Shown here: positions 4,911 to 58,609 of the stretch, piece after piece
How positions within the stretch are numbered: position 1 is the stretch's first letter
How the letters are laid out: every line of letters begins with the position of its first letter
NCBI RefSeq assembly: GCF_900450765.1
Contig: NZ_UGGU01000003.1
Span: 1,178,001-1,242,000 of the forward strand
Source of the DNA: Fusobacterium necrogenes
GTDB taxonomy: Bacteria > Fusobacteriota > Fusobacteriia > Fusobacteriales > Fusobacteriaceae
Direction: 5' to 3'
DNA length: 64,000 nucleotides
Notes under the pieces: model-generated
Told to the model about the DNA's origin: nothing
The model's database searches: none
What the model saw: the letters and a program-made list of their open reading frames with translations, nothing else
Program-made: the position numbers and the translations under genes

Positions 4911-5783
4911 CTATTTTATATCATTATCATTTAAAAATTTTATCATTTTTACATTTTCATTATCTTTTGCTATCTTAATTGCATTTTCACCATAAGAAGT
5001 ATAATAAGGATTAACTCCCATTTCTAATAGTTTTTTTACAACATCTATATATCCATTTGCCACAGCTCTTAAATAAACTTCTCCCATTATCAATTCATTA
5101 TTTAAATTTTTCTTTTTAAAATCATAACCTTTTATTGATAACATTTCTAATAGTATATCTTGATCATAAACATAATATATAGGATAATTTCCTTTATTAT
5201 CAATTTCTAAAAAATTTACTTTTTCCTGAATCATCTTTCTTATTAAATTTGAATTTCCACTTACTCCACTCCAAAATAAACTATTCCAGCCATTTTTATC
5301 CTGCATTTGAAAATTTATTTTTTGAGTAGTAAGATACTCAGAATATAAAAGTGGTTTATTCTTTACAAAATTTATAAAGAGAGGATCTTTTTGATTATCA
5401 ACTACATTTAAATCAACATTGTTCTCACACAATAACTTCAACGCTTCTAAACTTCTTACATAAAAAATTGGAGCTGTCATTGAATTATCAACCTTATCTA
5501 AATCAATATTTCTATTTAAAAGTAAAGTTATCGAATTCAAACTATTATTCTCTAAAGCAGTTATAAGCAAACTCTTACCATTTGAATCTTGATAATCAAG
5601 TGGAAACCCTCCCATCAAATACCTATTTAGCCTATATTTATCATCTAATAAAATACTATTATATACCTCTTCAACGCTAGGAATACTATCTTTTTTTTGA
5701 AAAAAACTACATCCTCCTAATAGTATAATAAAAATTAAATAACATATGCTTGTTAAAATTCTATTCCTCATTTTTCTTTTCAT
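4911..5783 (-). CDS. Ankyrin-repeat lipoprotein
   Basis: 290 residues with a basic start, a hydrophobic segment and a lipobox (LLGGC, Cys near residue 25), so probably an envelope lipoprotein. The body carries degenerate ankyrin-type repeats: DSNGKSLLITALENNSLNSI, a DKNGWNSLFWSGVSGNSNLI unit and a final GYIDVVKKLLEMGVNP unit. Ankyrin domains bind proteins; the partner is unknown. The start overlaps the typA stop by 23 bp, so it is probably coupled to typA. GGGAGAGAGAAG precedes the ATG, and another in-frame ATG occurs four codons later. Confidence 0.82.
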   Translation of the reverse strand: MKRKMRNRILTSICYLIFIILLGGCSFFQKKDSIPSVEEVYNSILLDDKYRLNRYLMGGFPLDYQDSNGKSLLITALENNSLNSITLLLNRNIDLDKVDNSMTAPIFYVRSLEALKLLCENNVDLNVVDNQKDPLFINFVKNKPLLYSEYLTTQKINFQMQDKNGWNSLFWSGVSGNSNLIRKMIQEKVNFLEIDNKGNYPIYYVYDQDILLEMLSIKGYDFKKKNLNNELIMGEVYLRAVANGYIDVVKKLLEMGVNPYYTSYGENAIKIAKDNENVKMIKFLNDNDIK

Positions 5784-7578
5784 ATTTTCTTCTCTCTCCC
5801 TCTTTCAGATATTTCTTTCTTAATCTGATATTCTCAGGAGTTACTTCAACAAGCTCATCATCTGCTATATAATCGAGTGCTTGCTCTAGAGTAAATCTTC
5901 TAGGTGGAGCTAATTTTACAGCATCATCACTTCCTGCAGCTCTCATATTTGTAAGTTTTTTAGTCTTACACACATTTACTACTAGGTCATTTTCTCTACT
6001 GTGTTCTCCAACTATCATTCCTTCATACACAGGTATTCCTGGATCTAAAAACAATGTTCCTCTATCTTGGATATTATTTAGTGCATAAGCTACAGTTACT
6101 CCTGGCTCTGTTGCAATTAAAACCCCTCTACTTCTTGTTGGAATTTCACCTTTATGAGGTTCATAATCATAGAATGAGTGGTTTAATATTCCCGTTCCTT
6201 TAGTATCTGTTAAGAATTCATTTCTAAATCCTATAAGTCCTCTTGCTGGAACCTTAAACTCTAAGCGAGTATATCCATCAGTACCTGGTATCATAGATAC
6301 CATTTCTCCCTTTCTAATACCCATTTTTTCAATAACTACACCTGTATAACTATCGTCAACATCTATTAAAGCCATTTCAATTGGTTCAAATTTCTTTCCA
6401 TCTTCCTCTTTCATAAGAACTCTTGGTTTTGAAACTTGAATTTCAAATCCTTCTCTTCTCATATTTTCAAGTAATATAGAAAGTTGAAGTTCTCCTCTTC
6501 CTTTTACAACAAAGGCATCTGGAGTATCTGTTGCTTCTACCTTCATACTTACGTTTGTTTGTAACTCTTTTTGAAGTCTTTCCCAGATATGTCTAGATGT
6601 TACAAATTTTCCCTCTTTTCCTGCAAATGGAGAATCATTTACCATAAACGTCATAGCTAGTGTTGGTTCATCAATATCTATCAGTGGAAGAGCTATTGGT
6701 TCATTTACATCTGCTAATGTTTCTCCAATATCTATATCTTCTATTCCTGCTATACATACTATATCTCCAGCATATGCCTCTTGAATCTCTACTCTTTTTA
6801 ATCCTTCATATCCATAAAGTACAGAGATCTTTCCTTTTATCATTTTTCCATCTCTCTTTATAAGCATAACTTCTTGGTTTCTTTTAACTATACCGTTATG
6901 AATTCTCCCAACAGCTAATTTACCAACATAGTTATCATATGCAATACTTGTTATTAAGAATTGCATAGGTTTGTTGGCGTCTCCTTCTGGATCCTCAACA
7001 TGCTCAAGAATAGCTTCAAATAGTGGAGTCATATCATTGCTTTCCTCTTCTAGACTTCTCTTAGCAAATCCACCTTTTCCTGAAGCATATACAACTGGGA
7101 ATTCAAGTTGTAGATCATTTGCATTTAACTCAATAAATAACTCATAAACCATATATAATACATCTTCTGGCCTTGCATTTGATTTATCTACTTTATTTAC
7201 AACTACTATTGGTCTATGACCTTGTTCTAAAGCTTTCTTCAAAACGTATTTAGTTTGGGGCATTGGTCCTTCAAAAGCATCTACTAAAAGTACAACAGAG
7301 TCAACCATTTTCATAATTCTTTGTACTTCACCTCCAAAGTCAGCATGTCCTGGAGTATCTACAATATTAATTTTATAATCTTTGTATCTAACAGATGCAT
7401 TTTTAGAGAATATAGTTATTCCTCTCTCTCTTTCAATGTCATTAGAGTCCATTACTCTTTCTTCGACTTTTTCTAATTCATGAGAAGCAAAAGCTCCTCC
7501 TTGTCTTAAAAGACAATCCACTAATGTTGTTTTACCGTGGTCAACATGGGCAATAATTGCTATGTTTTTTATTTTCAT
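5761..7578 (-). CDS. typA: Ribosome-associated GTPase TypA/BipA
   Basis: Translation-factor GTPase that binds the ribosome and assists 50S assembly and stress adaptation. Its 605 residues match the family. The G domain shows [29 protein letters not shown] and NKVDK; EF-G-like domains follow, then the TypA-specific C-terminus ([31 protein letters not shown]). Start ATG with AGGAAGAG upstream. It lies 20 bp after truB in the same operon. Identification is very secure. Confidence 0.98.
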
Positions 7579-52205: not shown

Positions 52206-52952
52206 TTAATCACTTATTTTATAATCAGATAGTAATTCTAAAGTTATTTTTGTAGTAGCTACACAAGTTATAAGTGGAGCTATAAATATCCCAATTAGTG
52301 GTATAAAAAATAAAAAAGTAAATATTCCACCACAAAGAGCAGCATATACTCTTTGTTTTCTTAAAAATTGAAGACTTTCTCTAGAAGAAAGATTATATCT
52401 TTCCAAAGTATAATCCATAAATGAAAAGCCTGTAAAATATCCTTGAATAATAAATATTAATAGTGGAATAGAAAGATTAATAGGAAATATAAATCCTAAT
52501 AACATAACTATACAAGTTCCAATCATTTGTTTAAAAAAACTTCTTAATCCAATATCTATACCTCTTAGAAGAAATTTTATGTTATCACTCATCTTAAAAT
52601 CAAACTCTTTGCCAGTAAGATATGTTTCAACTCTCTCTGAAATATAACCTAAAATAGGTGAAATTATTACAAGTAATAAAGATTTATAAACTAAATAATA
52701 GAAAAAAATAGTACATAACCAAACTAAAATCTTTATAAATATATAAAGAATTGAGCTATACTCCCCAAGTTTAAAAAAACTTTCTAAAGAATTAGTAAGA
52801 TTAAGTGAAAGATAATCTCCCAAATAAATAAACATTCCAAAAAGAAATAAACTTATTATTCCAGGTAAAAAATAGAATTTTCTAAGCCCAGCCTCTCTAA
52901 CTATTCGAAAAGCATCAAAATAAGAATTAAAAACCAAACTAATAATTTTCAT
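52206..52952 (-). CDS. EI24/CysZ-like membrane protein
   Basis: 248 residues from the ATG at 52952 with GAGG nine bases ahead; the start overlaps the histidine phosphatase stop. The open frame to 53009 lies inside the upstream gene and is rejected. About four to six membrane segments (FYFLPGIISLFLFGMFIYLG, LVYKSLLLVIISPILGYIS, SLRFL..-type end at VYAALCGGIFTFLFFIPLIG). Family is EI24, whose member CysZ imports sulfate. Function here is not established. Confidence 0.8.
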   Translation of the reverse strand: MKIISLVFNSYFDAFRIVREAGLRKFYFLPGIISLFLFGMFIYLGDYLSLNLTNSLESFFKLGEYSSILYIFIKILVWLCTIFFYYLVYKSLLLVIISPILGYISERVETYLTGKEFDFKMSDNIKFLLRGIDIGLRSFFKQMIGTCIVMLLGFIFPINLSIPLLIFIIQGYFTGFSFMDYTLERYNLSSRESLQFLRKQRVYAALCGGIFTFLFFIPLIGIFIAPLITCVATTKITLELLSDYKISD

Positions 52953-53574
52953 ACTCATTTTCCTCAAGATGTGAAATATCAGAAAACATTTCAATAGTAT
53001 ATTTTCCATCTGTGTAATCTACTATTGAAAGGCTTGTATTTTGGGGAACCTCCAACTTCCCTAATTCATCAAAGCTTACATTTTTTATAATTTTAAATAT
53101 TCCTTTTAATGTCATTCCATGAGTTACTATTACTACTATATCATCTTTTTTATGCTTATCAGTAACTTTTTTCAATCCTTTTTCCACTCGATTTAAAAGT
53201 TCTGAAAAGGTTTCTCCACTATAAGGTGTTGGATCATAATCTTTAGGATTAAAGAAAAAATTATGAAATTGCTCTGGAAATTTAGTTTTAAACTCTTCCC
53301 TTGATACCCCTTCCATTTTTCCAACAGATATTTCCTTAAATTCATCAATTGTTTTAATTTTTATATTTTTACTACCAATTATAAGTCTAGATGTTTCAAG
53401 AGTTCTCCCTAATGGAGATGAATAAAAACTTGTAAATTCAATATTTTTTAATCTTTCTCCTAATTTTTTAGCTTGTTTTTTTCCCTTTTCTGTAAGAGGT
53501 GAATTAGAAGAACCTTGAAAAATTCGTAAAGTATTCCATACTGTTTCTCCATGCCTTATAAAATAAATTTTCAT
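52939..53574 (-). CDS. Histidine phosphatase (phosphoglycerate mutase-like)
   Basis: 211 residues. The phosphate-binding RHGET motif is at 7-11, then NSPLTEKGKKQAKKLGERL, SSPLGRTLETSRLI, the acid GKMEGVSREEF and the distal VTHGMTLKGI. The catalytic His pair is complete. Could act on small phosphorylated metabolites (CobC/GpmB-like); substrate unknown. It sits between the M48 protease and the EI24 gene on the same strand. Confidence 0.9.
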   Translation of the reverse strand: MKIYFIRHGETVWNTLRIFQGSSNSPLTEKGKKQAKKLGERLKNIEFTSFYSSPLGRTLETSRLIIGSKNIKIKTIDEFKEISVGKMEGVSREEFKTKFPEQFHNFFFNPKDYDPTPYSGETFSELLNRVEKGLKKVTDKHKKDDIVVIVTHGMTLKGIFKIIKNVSFDELGKLEVPQNTSLSIVDYTDGKYTIEMFSDISHLEENEYENY

Positions 53575-53586
53575 ACCAATTCCTTT

Positions 53587-54351
53587 CTATCTTGTAATAT
53601 TCTTAAATTTCTCGCCTTGTAAAAAATTTTTAATATTATTTATTCTAGTAGTATCACTAGGATGAGTACTTAAGAACTCTATCTGATTTCCATTAGATGA
53701 ATTTTTCATTCTTTCCCAAAAAGTTATAGCAGCATTCGGATTATAACCGGCTAACTTCATAAATATAAGTCCTAATTCATCAGCTTCCGTCTCATGCTCT
53801 CTACTATATTTCAAAAGTACAAGATTAGATGCTCCATTATATATTTGAGAAGAAACTCCAATGGAATTTACAACAGAACCTCCTAAATTTTGTATAATTG
53901 AATAGCTAGCTTGTTCTCTTCCATGCTCAGCAATAGCATGTGCTATCTCATGAGACATAACCACAGCTAAGCCCTCTTCATCTTTTGTATATGGTAAAAT
54001 TCCTGTATAAACAGCTACTTTTCCTCCTGGCATACACCAAGCATTAGGTATTTCACTTTCAATTAAATTAAATTCCCATTGATACTTAAATTGTGAATTT
54101 TTCTGTTCTGGATGTTCATTAAAATATTTTTCGACAGCTTTTGAAATTCTTTCTCCTACCTTCTTTACAAGCTTAGAATCATCATTATTCAAAACTTTAC
54201 TATTAGCTATAACCTCTTTATACTGAGAATAACTTTGAGTTATTATTTCTTCTTCAGAAACTAAAAGCAATTGTTTCCTTCCAGAAATAGGAGCATTTGT
54301 ACAAGCTATTACTAAAGCTAAAATTAGGGAAATAAAAAATATTTTTTTCAT
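53587..54351 (-). CDS. M48-family metallopeptidase lipoprotein
   Basis: 254 residues from the ATG at 54351 with GGAGG ahead; frame extension to 54387 is rejected since the signal sequence begins MKKIFFISLILALVIAC. Lipobox VIAC gives an envelope lipoprotein. The zinc site is VVMSHEIAHAIAEHGREQ, with a downstream Glu ligand in REHETEADELGLIFM. The family includes BepA/LoiP, which handle outer-membrane protein quality. Divergent from kdsB. Confidence 0.93.
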   Translation of the reverse strand: MKKIFFISLILALVIACTNAPISGRKQLLLVSEEEIITQSYSQYKEVIANSKVLNNDDSKLVKKVGERISKAVEKYFNEHPEQKNSQFKYQWEFNLIESEIPNAWCMPGGKVAVYTGILPYTKDEEGLAVVMSHEIAHAIAEHGREQASYSIIQNLGGSVVNSIGVSSQIYNGASNLVLLKYSREHETEADELGLIFMKLAGYNPNAAITFWERMKNSSNGNQIEFLSTHPSDTTRINNIKNFLQGEKFKNITR

Positions 54352-54461
54352 TTTTATAAAAACCTCCTTAAAAATTATCTTACCCAAATTATTTTAATAA
54401 TTAGATATATCTGTTATAATGTAGTATAACATATTGTACTCGATTTTAAGGAGGTTGTAAA

Positions 54462-55223
54462 ATGAAATTTTTAGGAGTAATTCCTTCAAGATATGCTTCT
54501 ACAAGGCTAGAAGGTAAACCATTAAAGGATATTTGTGGACACCCAATGATCGAATGGGTATACAAAAGAACTAAATTATCTAATTTAGATGAAGTAATAG
54601 TAGCAACAGATGATGAAAAAATCTATTTTGAGGTTGAAAAATTTGGAGGGAAAGCTATTCTCACAGATAAAAATCACGAAAATGGAACAAGTAGAATAGC
54701 TGAAGTTTGTAAAAAATATAAAGAATATGATGTGGTAGTTAATATACAAGGAGATGAGCCATTAATAGAACCAGCTATGATAAACTCCATAATTGATTCT
54801 TTTAAAAATGATCCCACTCTCCTTATGAGTACATTAAAATATAAATTAGACAATATTGAAGATATAGAAAATCCAAATTATGTAAAAGTAATAACGGATA
54901 AAGAAAATTATGCCTTATATTTCTCAAGAAGTGTAATTCCTTACCCAAGAAAATTGAACATACAAAACTATTATAAACATGTAGGAATTTATGGCTATAA
55001 GAGAGATTTTCTAATAAAATATTCTAAAATGCCTCCTACTTCACTAGAATTATCCGAATCTCTAGAGCAACTTAGAGCTTTAGAAAATGGTTTTAAAATT
55101 AAAGTACTAGAAACTCCTTATAAAATTTTAGGTGTAGATACCCAAGAAGAATTAGAAAAAGTTAGAAAATATATAAAAGAAAATAAAATAAAACTAGATC
55201 AAAATTTGAAAGGAGAAAGATGA
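54462..55223 (+). CDS. kdsB: 3-deoxy-manno-octulosonate cytidylyltransferase
   Basis: Activates KDO as CMP-KDO for the LPS inner core. 253 residues: IPSRYASTRLEGKPLKDICG, HPMIEWVYKRTKLS, ILTDKNHENGTSRIAEV, VVNIQGDEPLIEPAMI, YFSRSVIPYPR and SLEQLRALENGFKIK. AAGGAGG precedes the ATG; a TATAAT lies at 54415-54420. It overlaps the SpoIID-like gene by 4 bp (ATGA). Confidence 0.97.
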   Translation: MKFLGVIPSRYASTRLEGKPLKDICGHPMIEWVYKRTKLSNLDEVIVATDDEKIYFEVEKFGGKAILTDKNHENGTSRIAEVCKKYKEYDVVVNIQGDEPLIEPAMINSIIDSFKNDPTLLMSTLKYKLDNIEDIENPNYVKVITDKENYALYFSRSVIPYPRKLNIQNYYKHVGIYGYKRDFLIKYSKMPPTSLELSESLEQLRALENGFKIKVLETPYKILGVDTQEELEKVRKYIKENKIKLDQNLKGER

Positions 55224-56800
55224 ATATATTAAAAAAGTTACTAATAACGCTAACAACAACTGTAGTACTAATGAGTTGTACTTCCACAGAAAATTTTAGA
55301 GAAATAAATGGTGTTCCATATAAAGTAGAGAAAAGAAAAATTAAAAGTGGAGATTATAACTTAAATAATGAGTTTTTTAGAGAAAGAGGATTGCCAGTAC
55401 CAGCTAATTTTAAAGAAAAAAGTGTCGAATATCTTGTAGCTAGAAATGATACATTAAAAAAATATGACTATGATTTTTTTAATGGAGTAGATGAAAAGCA
55501 AGCCTTAAGTTTTTATAAAGATTTAGAAGTTAGGGGATATGGTGATAACTCTTTATATTGGAGATGGAAAATATCCTTAGAGAAAGACGAACTTTTTACA
55601 GCAATAAAAAATAATCTCATATCCTTATACAAAGAAAAACCAGCTGATGTACTTACTCTTTCTGGAAAAAATTGGAAATCTCTTAAAATAACAATGTCCA
55701 GTATAGGAAAAATTAAAAATGTAGAAATAGCTGGAAGAGGAAAATCAGGAGTAGTAACTTATATTTTAATCACTACAAGTACTAATAAATATTTAGTAGC
55801 CAAAGAATTAAATATAAGAAAATTATTTATCCTTACAAAACTAACAACAAAAAGTAAAAGAGATATTTTAATGTATGGAACAAAAGGAGGAGTTAAAAAA
55901 TACCAAGATAATCCAATTAGACGAAATATTACCTTACTCCCTTCTAGCTATTTTGTAATAGAATATTTAGGAGAAAAAGTTAATATCTTTGGTGGGGGAT
56001 ATGGACATGGCGTAGGTATGGGACAATATACAGCCTATGATTTATCTGCTAATCATGGCTACTCATACAAACAGATTTTATCTAGATACTATCCTCACTC
56101 ACAGTTAAAAGATATGTATTCACTAAAAGGAGTAGGGAAAATTATAAACGTTGGAATCACATCAAATGGTTCTCTCGATCATGACAAAGTTACTCTTTTT
56201 AGTAATGGAAAAATTAAAATAAATGGTGCTGGTTTTAAAATAGATGTTCCAGCTAAGCAAAAGATTATTATTATAAATAAAGGGAATAGACTATGGGTAA
56301 GTGTAAATGGAAAACATAGAGTTAAAACAGTAAATCCACTTAATATAACAGCTCATGGTTTCTATATAACTTTAGATGGCTTAAAAAAAGCACATACTAA
56401 TTCACCAAGGTACAGAGGAGATTTCACAATAAAACCATCTAAAAGTAATTCTAAAAAAATAAGAGTAATCAACAAAGTAAAAATAGAAGATTATCTAAAA
56501 CAAGTAGTTCCTAGTGAAATGCCAGAAAATTTTGGAATAGAAGCTCTTAAAGCACAATCAGTAGCTGCTAGGACCTATGCTTTAAGTGATTACTTAAAAA
56601 ACAAGTATAAAAGAGATGGTTTTCATGTAAAAGATACAACAGAAAGTCAAGTATATAATAACGCTAAAGAGAATGACAGTTCTACAAAAGCTATAGAAGC
56701 TACATCTGGTAAAGTTTTAATGAATGCTGGAAAACCTATTGATGCAAAATACTTTTCTACTTCTTCTGGATTTACAGAAGCTGCAAATTATATTTGGTAA
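55220..56800 (+). CDS. SpoIID/LytB-domain lipoprotein with permuted domain halves
   Basis: 526 residues with lipobox VVLMSC (Cys near 20). The SpoIID/LytB fold is a peptidoglycan lytic transglycosylase. What is usually its C-terminal half comes first here: WRWKISLEKDELFTAIKNN, then GGGYGHGVGMGQ (258-269) and ILSRYYP (ending 292). What is usually the N-terminal half comes last: IEDYLKQVVPSEMP with E433 as the expected catalytic Glu, AQSVAARTYA (445-454) and STSSGFTEAANYIW at the very end. The protein stops exactly where the canonical order would join the two halves, which points to a circular permutation. Coupled to kdsB by ATGA. Confidence 0.85.
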   Translation: MNILKKLLITLTTTVVLMSCTSTENFREINGVPYKVEKRKIKSGDYNLNNEFFRERGLPVPANFKEKSVEYLVARNDTLKKYDYDFFNGVDEKQALSFYKDLEVRGYGDNSLYWRWKISLEKDELFTAIKNNLISLYKEKPADVLTLSGKNWKSLKITMSSIGKIKNVEIAGRGKSGVVTYILITTSTNKYLVAKELNIRKLFILTKLTTKSKRDILMYGTKGGVKKYQDNPIRRNITLLPSSYFVIEYLGEKVNIFGGGYGHGVGMGQYTAYDLSANHGYSYKQILSRYYPHSQLKDMYSLKGVGKIINVGITSNGSLDHDKVTLFSNGKIKINGAGFKIDVPAKQKIIIINKGNRLWVSVNGKHRVKTVNPLNITAHGFYITLDGLKKAHTNSPRYRGDFTIKPSKSNSKKIRVINKVKIEDYLKQVVPSEMPENFGIEALKAQSVAARTYALSDYLKNKYKRDGFHVKDTTESQVYNNAKENDSSTKAIEATSGKVLMNAGKPIDAKYFSTSSGFTEAANYIW

Positions 56801-57160: not shown

Positions 57161-58609
57161 ATGTTTGAAATACTCAAATTAGCTCCAGTTGTAATATTAG
57201 CTGGACTTATGATAGGAGGATTTGATGCTTTAATAGCTGCTCCTCTTGCCACTATTGCAGCAGCTTTAGCTGCAAGCATAACCGAAAAAAGGAAATTTAA
57301 TGAAATCCTAGATGCAGCTCTTTCAAATGTTAGAGAGATAGTAATAGCACTCTTTATATTAATGTTGGCTTATGCTATGGCAGAAGTATTTATGTCAACA
57401 GGAGTTGGAGCAGCTATAATCAATTTTGCTTTAAAAATTGGAATAACAGGTAGAAGCATAGCAGTAGTAGGAGTTATTGTTACATCTATTCTATCTATTG
57501 CAACAGGTACAAGTTGGGGAACTTTTGCTGCATGTGCACCTATATTTTTATGGCTTAACTATATAGTAAATGGAAATATCTTTTTAACAATTGGTGCAAT
57601 AGCTGGTGGAGCTTGCTTTGGTGATAATATAGGTCTCATATCTGACACTACAATTGTGAGCTCCGGAATACAAGGAGTAGAGGTTATAAAAAGAGTAAGA
57701 CATCAGGGTATTTGGTCAGGATTAGTTTTATTATTAGGAGTCATAGCTTTTGGAATAGCTGGTTTCATTCTCGATCTACCTAATATAACAGGAAATGGTG
57801 CAGAAGCAATAGCTAAAATACCCTCAGATGTATGGTCTAAACTAGCTTTAGAAAGGGAATCAGCTGTTACTTTACTTAACCAAGTAAAGCAAGGTGTTCC
57901 TATTTATATGATAGTTCCATTAATTCTCGTACTAGGTGCAGCTTTTAGAGGTTATCAAACTTTCATATGTCTTTTTATAGGAATTATATCTTCATATATC
58001 TTAGGTAAGGTAGCAGGTACAGTAACTGACACAAGAAGTTTTTTAGAAAATCTAATAATGTCTGGTTTTTCTGGAGCAGGATCTTGGGTAATTGTAATGA
58101 TGATGTGGGTATCAGCTTTTGGTGGTATAATGAAATCTATTGATGCCTTCAGACCATTATCTAATTTACTCATAAAAATCTCAAAAAATGTGAGACAACT
58201 TATGTTTTGGAATGGAGTTTTGGCAATAGTAGGAAATATGACATTAGCAGATGAAATGGCACAGATTGTAACTGTTGGTCCTATTATTAGAAATTTAGTA
58301 GAAAAAAATGTAGTTGGAAGTCAAGAAGATATGGAAAAATTAAAGTTACGTAACGCTACATTTAATGATGCTATGGGAGTTTTTGGTTCTCAACTCATAC
58401 CTTGGCATGTATATATAGGATTTTATATTGGTATAGCTACTACCGTTTATCCTCTTTATGAATTTAAAGCCTTTGATATAATTAAATATAATTTTATAGC
58501 TTATATAGCTGTTATAAGTATGTTATTTCTTACTATAACAGGTTTTGATAAATTTATACCAAATTTTGGACTACCAAGAGAACCTCAAGTAACATTAAAA
58601 AAATACTAA
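57161..58609 (+). CDS. lysW: NhaC-family transporter, predicted lysine importer
   Basis: 482 residues with about 11-12 membrane helices. NhaC-like features: SILSIATGTSWGTFAACAPI, GGACFGDNIGLISDTTIVSS and NMTLADEMAQIVTVGPI. The family is annotated as Na+/H+ antiporters, but members under lysine riboswitches have been proposed to be lysine transporters (LysW), which the leader here supports. The gene follows AGGAGG and the terminator. The name is inferred from regulation. Confidence 0.88.
   Translation: MFEILKLAPVVILAGLMIGGFDALIAAPLATIAAALAASITEKRKFNEILDAALSNVREIVIALFILMLAYAMAEVFMSTGVGAAIINFALKIGITGRSIAVVGVIVTSILSIATGTSWGTFAACAPIFLWLNYIVNGNIFLTIGAIAGGACFGDNIGLISDTTIVSSGIQGVEVIKRVRHQGIWSGLVLLLGVIAFGIAGFILDLPNITGNGAEAIAKIPSDVWSKLALERESAVTLLNQVKQGVPIYMIVPLILVLGAAFRGYQTFICLFIGIISSYILGKVAGTVTDTRSFLENLIMSGFSGAGSWVIVMMMWVSAFGGIMKSIDAFRPLSNLLIKISKNVRQLMFWNGVLAIVGNMTLADEMAQIVTVGPIIRNLVEKNVVGSQEDMEKLKLRNATFNDAMGVFGSQLIPWHVYIGFYIGIATTVYPLYEFKAFDIIKYNFIAYIAVISMLFLTITGFDKFIPNFGLPREPQVTLKKY

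Follow-up and report, generated by a model that had tools for sequence, protein, structure and literature searches.

SpoIID cuts glycan strands once an amidase has removed their stem peptides (PMC6221140; PMC6635528), and E101 is the catalytic residue of the C. difficile enzyme (PMC6934232; PMC6221140). Zinc-binding residues are found only in clostridial SpoIID (PMC6934232), and the SpoIID homologue of a non-sporulating, chlamydia-related bacterium is septal (PMC6635528; PMC6221140). In the SpoIID/LytB family (TIGR02669; PF08486), the motifs canonically follow one another as VPSEMP .. TSGG.TE..W .. GHGVGMSQ .. YYP. This order is found in the native fusobacterial SpoIID, a protein of 268-442 aa (mostly 367-398) that lacks the lipobox pattern in 23 of 31 cases and is encoded in the locus order mltG-(radical SAM)-spoIID-tilS-ftsH. 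It is likewise found in a Bacillota subfamily, usually within larger proteins (1895 aa in Paenibacillus guangzhouensis); other members of this subfamily are mostly ~690-790 aa long with a ~250-aa N-terminal region, and one group is ~500 aa.

Relative to these proteins, a SpoIID/LytB-type protein of Fusobacterium necrogenes is rearranged. Its gene lies in the window (the whole 64-kb stretch of DNA that was analysed), and the features are listed in Table 1. We propose that its product is a natural circular permutant of the SpoIID/LytB family, in all likelihood a periplasmic lytic transglycosylase with a lipid anchor, and that a Bacillota-type gene was acquired, was permuted and displaced the native enzyme (probability about 0.86).

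Table 1. Features of the permuted spoIID locus and its surroundings, in window positions.
Feature	Position	Strand	Details
EI24/CysZ-like, histidine phosphatase and M48 peptidase genes	52206-54387	-	divergent, beside kdsB
kdsB (CMP-KDO synthetase)	54462-55223	+	4-base overlap with the spoIID start
Permuted SpoIID/LytB-type lipoprotein gene	55220-56800	+	526 aa; open reading frame and profile matches
Lipoprotein signal peptide	55220-55279	+	lipobox LMSC (..VLMSC-TST), Cys20; Cys conserved across the permuted family
N-terminal linker	55280-55405	+	aa 21-62; weakly conserved across permuted proteins
Canonical second half, now first	55406-56119	+	aa 63-300 = canonical profile positions 230-461
GGGYGHGVGMGQ motif	55991-56026	+	aa 258-269
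Junction, ~9 aa	56120-56146	+	former C-terminus ..LKDMY joined to former domain N-terminus IINVGIT
Canonical first half, now second	56147-56797	+	aa 310-526 = canonical profile positions 6-223
Predicted catalytic Glu433 in VPSEMP	56516-56518	+	aligned with E101 of C. difficile SpoIID (5txu chain numbering)
Trp526 and stop codon, new C-terminus	56795-56800	+	conserved Trp; canonical chain continues beyond
Lysine riboswitch aptamer RF00168	56913-57084	+	114.7 bits
Na+/H+ antiporter family gene	57161-58609		

A preliminary description of this gene had reported a full set of SpoIID motifs in exchanged order, and the open reading frame, each quoted motif position and the terminal Trp were all confirmed. 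GGGYGHGVGMGQ and RYYP (aa 289-292) precede VVPSEMP (429-435), SVAARTYA (447-454) and STSSGFTEAANYIW (513-526), with W526 as the final residue of the open reading frame. PF08486 (Pfam) matches aa 411-501 with 98.8 bits (cut-off 23), and TIGR02669 (NCBIfam) reaches 177.8 bits (cut-off 83.3) in two stretches of reversed order, profile positions 2-111 falling at aa 416-526 and positions ~144-269 further upstream. Comparison with solved structures by phmmer pairs query 413-526 with chain 59-183 of B. anthracis SpoIID (4rwr) and query 234-304 with chain 257-325; C. difficile 5i1t and 5txu show the same block reversal. These Pfam, TIGR02669 and phmmer matches are significant and rule out a chance motif match. 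The sporulation SpoIID proteins of B. subtilis, C. difficile and B. anthracis (TIGR02870; 5i1t, 5txu, 4rwr) are homologous to the permuted protein over both blocks, but their order is opposite and the permuted protein lacks the clostridial zinc-binding Cys. Its TIGR02870 score, 134.8 bits, is below the curated cut-off of 234.75 for the sporulation equivalog. Fusobacteria are not known to sporulate. The 526-aa protein belongs to the SpoIID/LytB family as a permuted variant and not as a canonical member: all conserved motifs are present, including the VPSEMP context of the Glu, and the permuted proteins differ in their reversed stretches, a length of 494-535 aa, a lipobox and a C-terminus at Trp. 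Public annotation names them only as "SpoIID/LytB domain-containing protein" (e.g., WP_320949739.1).

The rearrangement was mapped onto a canonical profile of 462 positions, for which 49 Bacillota-side sequences of canonical order were used and none from Fusobacterium. The window protein matches this profile with 398.8 bits as two rotated blocks (Table 1), and nine further permuted proteins match it in the same way. In total, 450 of the 462 positions (97%) are matched, with the break at 223/230 and the join at 461/6; canonical-order relatives cover the same 450 positions. Because these positions are all present in rotated order, the SpoIID/LytB domain is, as judged from the alignments, a complete circular permutation with almost nothing lost, which agrees with the earlier suggestion of a swap rather than a loss. 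The conserved Trp is the last residue before the break, at which canonical proteins run on as W-(12-16 aa, ..FPGTPIPYL..), and in some permuted proteins the end of the linker resembles this canonical Trp-to-PYL loop (NTFGSEIPYL in genome G016 versus canonical TNQFPGTPIPYL). At the join, the canonical C-terminal end (..YYPGTELRNIY), at which many Bacillota proteins stop, leads through ~9 residues into the canonical domain start (IRVGI).

SpoIID was searched for in 61 Fusobacteriaceae and 98 Fusobacteriota genomes. As the preliminary description had advised, orthologues in other Fusobacterium genomes were compared, and the permuted order proved to be conserved, occurring in 46 of 46 proteins of the permuted family from 44 genomes and eight genera (g1-g6, g11 and g12 of family f1). 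Canonical order is found in genera g7-g10, g13 and g14 and in the other SpoIID-bearing fusobacterial families. Every one of the 46 permuted and 31 canonical fusobacterial proteins inspected fits this genus split, and each SpoIID-bearing genome has one type or the other; none of the searched Fusobacteriota genomes has both. Carriers of the permuted gene include Fusobacterium mortiferum, and tblastn matches aa 48-526 as a single piece, with the order unchanged, in records that bear the names Fusobacterium animalis and F. vincentii. Consistent open reading frames in 44 genomes rule out an assembly, frameshift or contig-join artefact, as the motif order is identical across the 46 proteins. Two outcomes had been named beforehand as tests of the permutation, a full-length profile alignment in canonical order and an artefact of this kind, and neither was found; profile coverage, orthologues in eight genera and canonical relatives over the same 450 positions bear the claim out.

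Some variation was seen at the edges of this distribution. Two genomes of g11 have an additional permuted SpoIID, which has diverged and does not adjoin kdsB (L079 in G046, 5096-6703; L082 in G048, 5312-6811), and the second copy in G046 ends ..SDQIIK rather than in the usual terminal Trp. In G050 the open reading frame (L117, 4598-6124) stops short of the final segment, with one in-frame TAG within the match, owing to a truncation of recent date or to an error in sequencing. Finally, no SpoIID of either order was detected in 19 genomes of genera g18, g19, g21, g22 and g24 of family f4.

Outside Fusobacteriota, no permuted SpoIID was seen among the matches listed for ~290 genomes of other phyla or among the above-threshold matches listed for Bacillota-side genomes (398 and 321), nor was any seen on non-Fusobacterium plasmids, phages or viral contigs. 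One Bacillota-side candidate, G1090, was rejected as a permuted homologue: its single match spanned query 227-519, and its full sequence is canonical. Within Fusobacteriota, a tree of KdsB, TilS, FtsH and MltG places all permuted genomes in a single clade of Fusobacteriaceae (100 SH-aLRT), so one permutation event on one branch suffices. The permuted proteins are themselves monophyletic, with 99 SH-aLRT in a 122-protein tree and 97/93 in a 46-protein tree.

The nearest relatives found outside Fusobacteriota are the canonical-order Bacillota proteins. For example, the plasmid-encoded P. guangzhouensis protein WP_193727025.1 (1895 aa) combines a canonical-order SpoIID domain with Big_2, GHL10 and cohesin domains and shares ~36-39% identity with the window protein across the two blocks, extra segments included. 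Profiles of the permuted proteins score 173 and 235 bits on this Paenibacillus domain and do not exceed 64 and 131 bits on any native fusobacterial protein, and the extra segments (..FYKDLxxxGYGDNSxYWRWK.., RPxxVLTL.., KGGxxxY..) are common to the permuted proteins and their Bacillota relatives and absent from the native fusobacterial ones. Subfamily members occur in 22 of 350 Paenibacillus-group genomes, with further members in genomes sampled around that group, and all sequences above the subfamily score are canonical (52 entries, two of which are overlapping copies of others). The sampled genomes are labelled "Bacillota" because they were taken from the same order and phylum as G148, a genome with a SpoIID similar to the one in Paenibacillus cellulosilyticus; the label leans also on the named P. 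guangzhouensis record. In the Paenibacillus-group genomes, the related canonical SpoIID domain sits near the N-terminal end of large proteins (L145, 4572-10259; L168-L189) whose genes lie near nagA, an anhydro-MurNAc kinase gene and a DUF1343 gene; the P. guangzhouensis large protein has an additional weak dockerin match.

In the 122-protein tree, the permuted clade lies within a permuted-plus-Bacillota group (95) separate from native fusobacterial SpoIID (96), which is of the same domain family and is found in sister lineages. The permuted-plus-Bacillota group receives 100/100 in the 46-protein bootstrap tree; the native fusobacterial group of that tree needed two changes, which left this grouping unaffected. 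A topology that unites the permuted proteins with the native fusobacterial ones is rejected by an AU test on the 46-protein set (p = 4.3e-5). The permuted clade is not nested with support among the Bacillota sequences sampled, so the proposed Bacillota donor is deduced from the wider grouping. On sequence grounds, the best reading is that the permuted family is a xenologue of the canonical-order Bacillota subfamily and not a rearranged native gene. Alternatively, a Bacillota-like subfamily could have existed beside the native gene in the fusobacterial ancestor and been lost everywhere except in the permuted clade. The tree alone cannot tell a transfer from an old duplication followed by losses, and the Bacillota subfamily is a broad, deep clade, as such an origin would lead one to expect; however, many independent losses would be required, and none of the 98 Fusobacteriota genomes yielded a subfamily member in canonical order. 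We regard this ancient paralogue as unlikely, and less likely than transfer.

A second alternative concerns the protein itself. Two independently folding modules might have been shuffled, each folding alone, with no change of topology within a single fold. The linker between the blocks is short and weakly conserved and two separable profile stretches are matched, as module shuffling would predict, but both blocks jointly make the single TIGR02669 domain, occur in one chain in 4rwr, 5i1t and 5txu, and carry conserved motifs that are invariant in the permuted family, so that a simple reversal of modules appears rather improbable. An AlphaFold2 model from a two-sequence alignment of the permuted protein had a mean pLDDT of 33.6, too low for use. 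Judged by sequence coverage and conservation, the two blocks of the circular permutant probably make up a single SpoIID fold as before. This fold, with its active site, would be kept if the old termini are near enough for a ~9-residue link.

The predicted catalytic residue is conserved throughout. E433, G-H-G-x-G, Q269, R451-T452, D472, Q477 and Y479 are invariant in 46 of 46 permuted proteins, and a Cys20-type residue closes the signal in essentially all of them, mostly followed by Ser. E433 lies in the (V)VxxEMP motif and aligns with E101 of C. difficile SpoIID. Since the catalytic Glu is invariant, the permuted protein is likely an active lytic transglycosylase. A descendant that merely binds peptidoglycan or scaffolds the divisome, cleaving nothing, would be compatible with the missing clostridial zinc-binding Cys; yet these residues are clostridial only (PMC6934232), and their absence is therefore no argument against activity, while the catalytic Glu and its surrounding motif are invariant and the gene is retained in every clade genome examined as the sole SpoIID type there. 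We consider loss of catalysis quite improbable. In the catalytic reading, Glu433 would be the catalytic acid, acting on strands stripped of stem peptides by an amidase, and the single Amidase_3 gene of the F. necrogenes genome could be the source of such denuded strands. The enzyme would be anchored in the membrane and periplasmic, most likely working during division in the role of the lost native enzyme.

That native enzyme is absent from its usual place. All 13 permuted genomes examined have the operon without spoIID, as mltG-rSAM-tilS-ftsH or mltG-tilS-ftsH, with closed-up gaps of 27-128 bp between rSAM and tilS and 16-154 bp between mltG and tilS. In F. necrogenes, this operon lies outside the 64-kb window (G000:C3:1136685-1142882). 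The permuted proteins neither share a clade with canonical fusobacterial SpoIID nor are encoded between mltG and tilS. As the native gene is gone from the operon on the same branch, its function seems to have passed to the permuted enzyme. Permutation in place, by excision of the native mltG-locus spoIID, its circularization or duplication, permutation and re-insertion behind kdsB with no transfer, would account in one step for why loss of the native gene coincides, genome for genome, with presence of the permuted one, but the AU test, the 100/100 grouping and the extra segments shared with Bacillota relatives make it most improbable; descent from the native gene was dropped after the far closer Paenibacillus match, before the AU test rejected it.

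The permuted gene itself is paired with kdsB. In the permuted genomes examined, across all genera, kdsB is directly upstream, and the two genes overlap by as much as 14 bp or lie as much as 73 bp apart; kdsB of the canonical genomes examined has no adjacent spoIID. The preliminary description had assigned the gene to an LPS operon with kdsB. The adjacency holds, but "LPS operon" was an overstatement: only kdsB is involved, and kdsB and permuted spoIID form a two-gene unit with no larger LPS operon. The neighbours of this unit are genes for an M48 peptidase, a histidine phosphatase and a Na+/H+ antiporter family protein. Phosphatase and M48 genes are also found near kdsB in some canonical genomes (G040-G042), which suggests that the kdsB neighbourhood is older than the arrival of the permuted gene. 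On the other side, a lysine riboswitch aptamer (RF00168) sits between permuted spoIID and the Na+/H+ antiporter family gene. Its placement ahead of that gene suggests that the transporter is perhaps lysine-controlled.

We propose the following history for the acquired gene. The ancestor of the clade would have gained a Bacillota-type spoIID next to kdsB, once. The simplest and most likely route to the permutation is a tandem duplication whose copies fused in frame; copy 1 would then have lost its front and copy 2 its back, and a new lipoprotein signal would have been placed ahead of the permuted gene. No duplicated intermediate was found among the sequences searched, and other routes would fit as well: excision as a circle with re-insertion, or permutation ahead of transfer. 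The permuted enzyme would then have assumed the job of the native enzyme, whose gene was subsequently lost.

Catalytic domains are seldom circularly permuted in nature, and the unpermuted ancestor, break, join and branch of such an event can usually not all be named. Here, all four are approachable: a break after the conserved Trp, a ~9-residue join, the stem branch of a fusobacterial clade, and canonical relatives that cover 97% of positions. In the literature searched, which takes in only a minority of subscription journals, no publication was found that links SpoIID to circular permutation or to Fusobacterium.

In summary, a peptidoglycan lytic transglycosylase of Fusobacterium and its close relatives is probably a natural permutant that came from Bacillota, was permuted once and fully displaced the native enzyme across eight genera. 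The SpoIID-type enzyme of this clade, human-associated Fusobacterium included, can now be named, and annotation or structure alignment that depends on linear order would miss or truncate it. If the proposed history is true, nature has carried out an experiment in this clade, with an enzyme in permuted form taking the place of its unpermuted counterpart in living cells.
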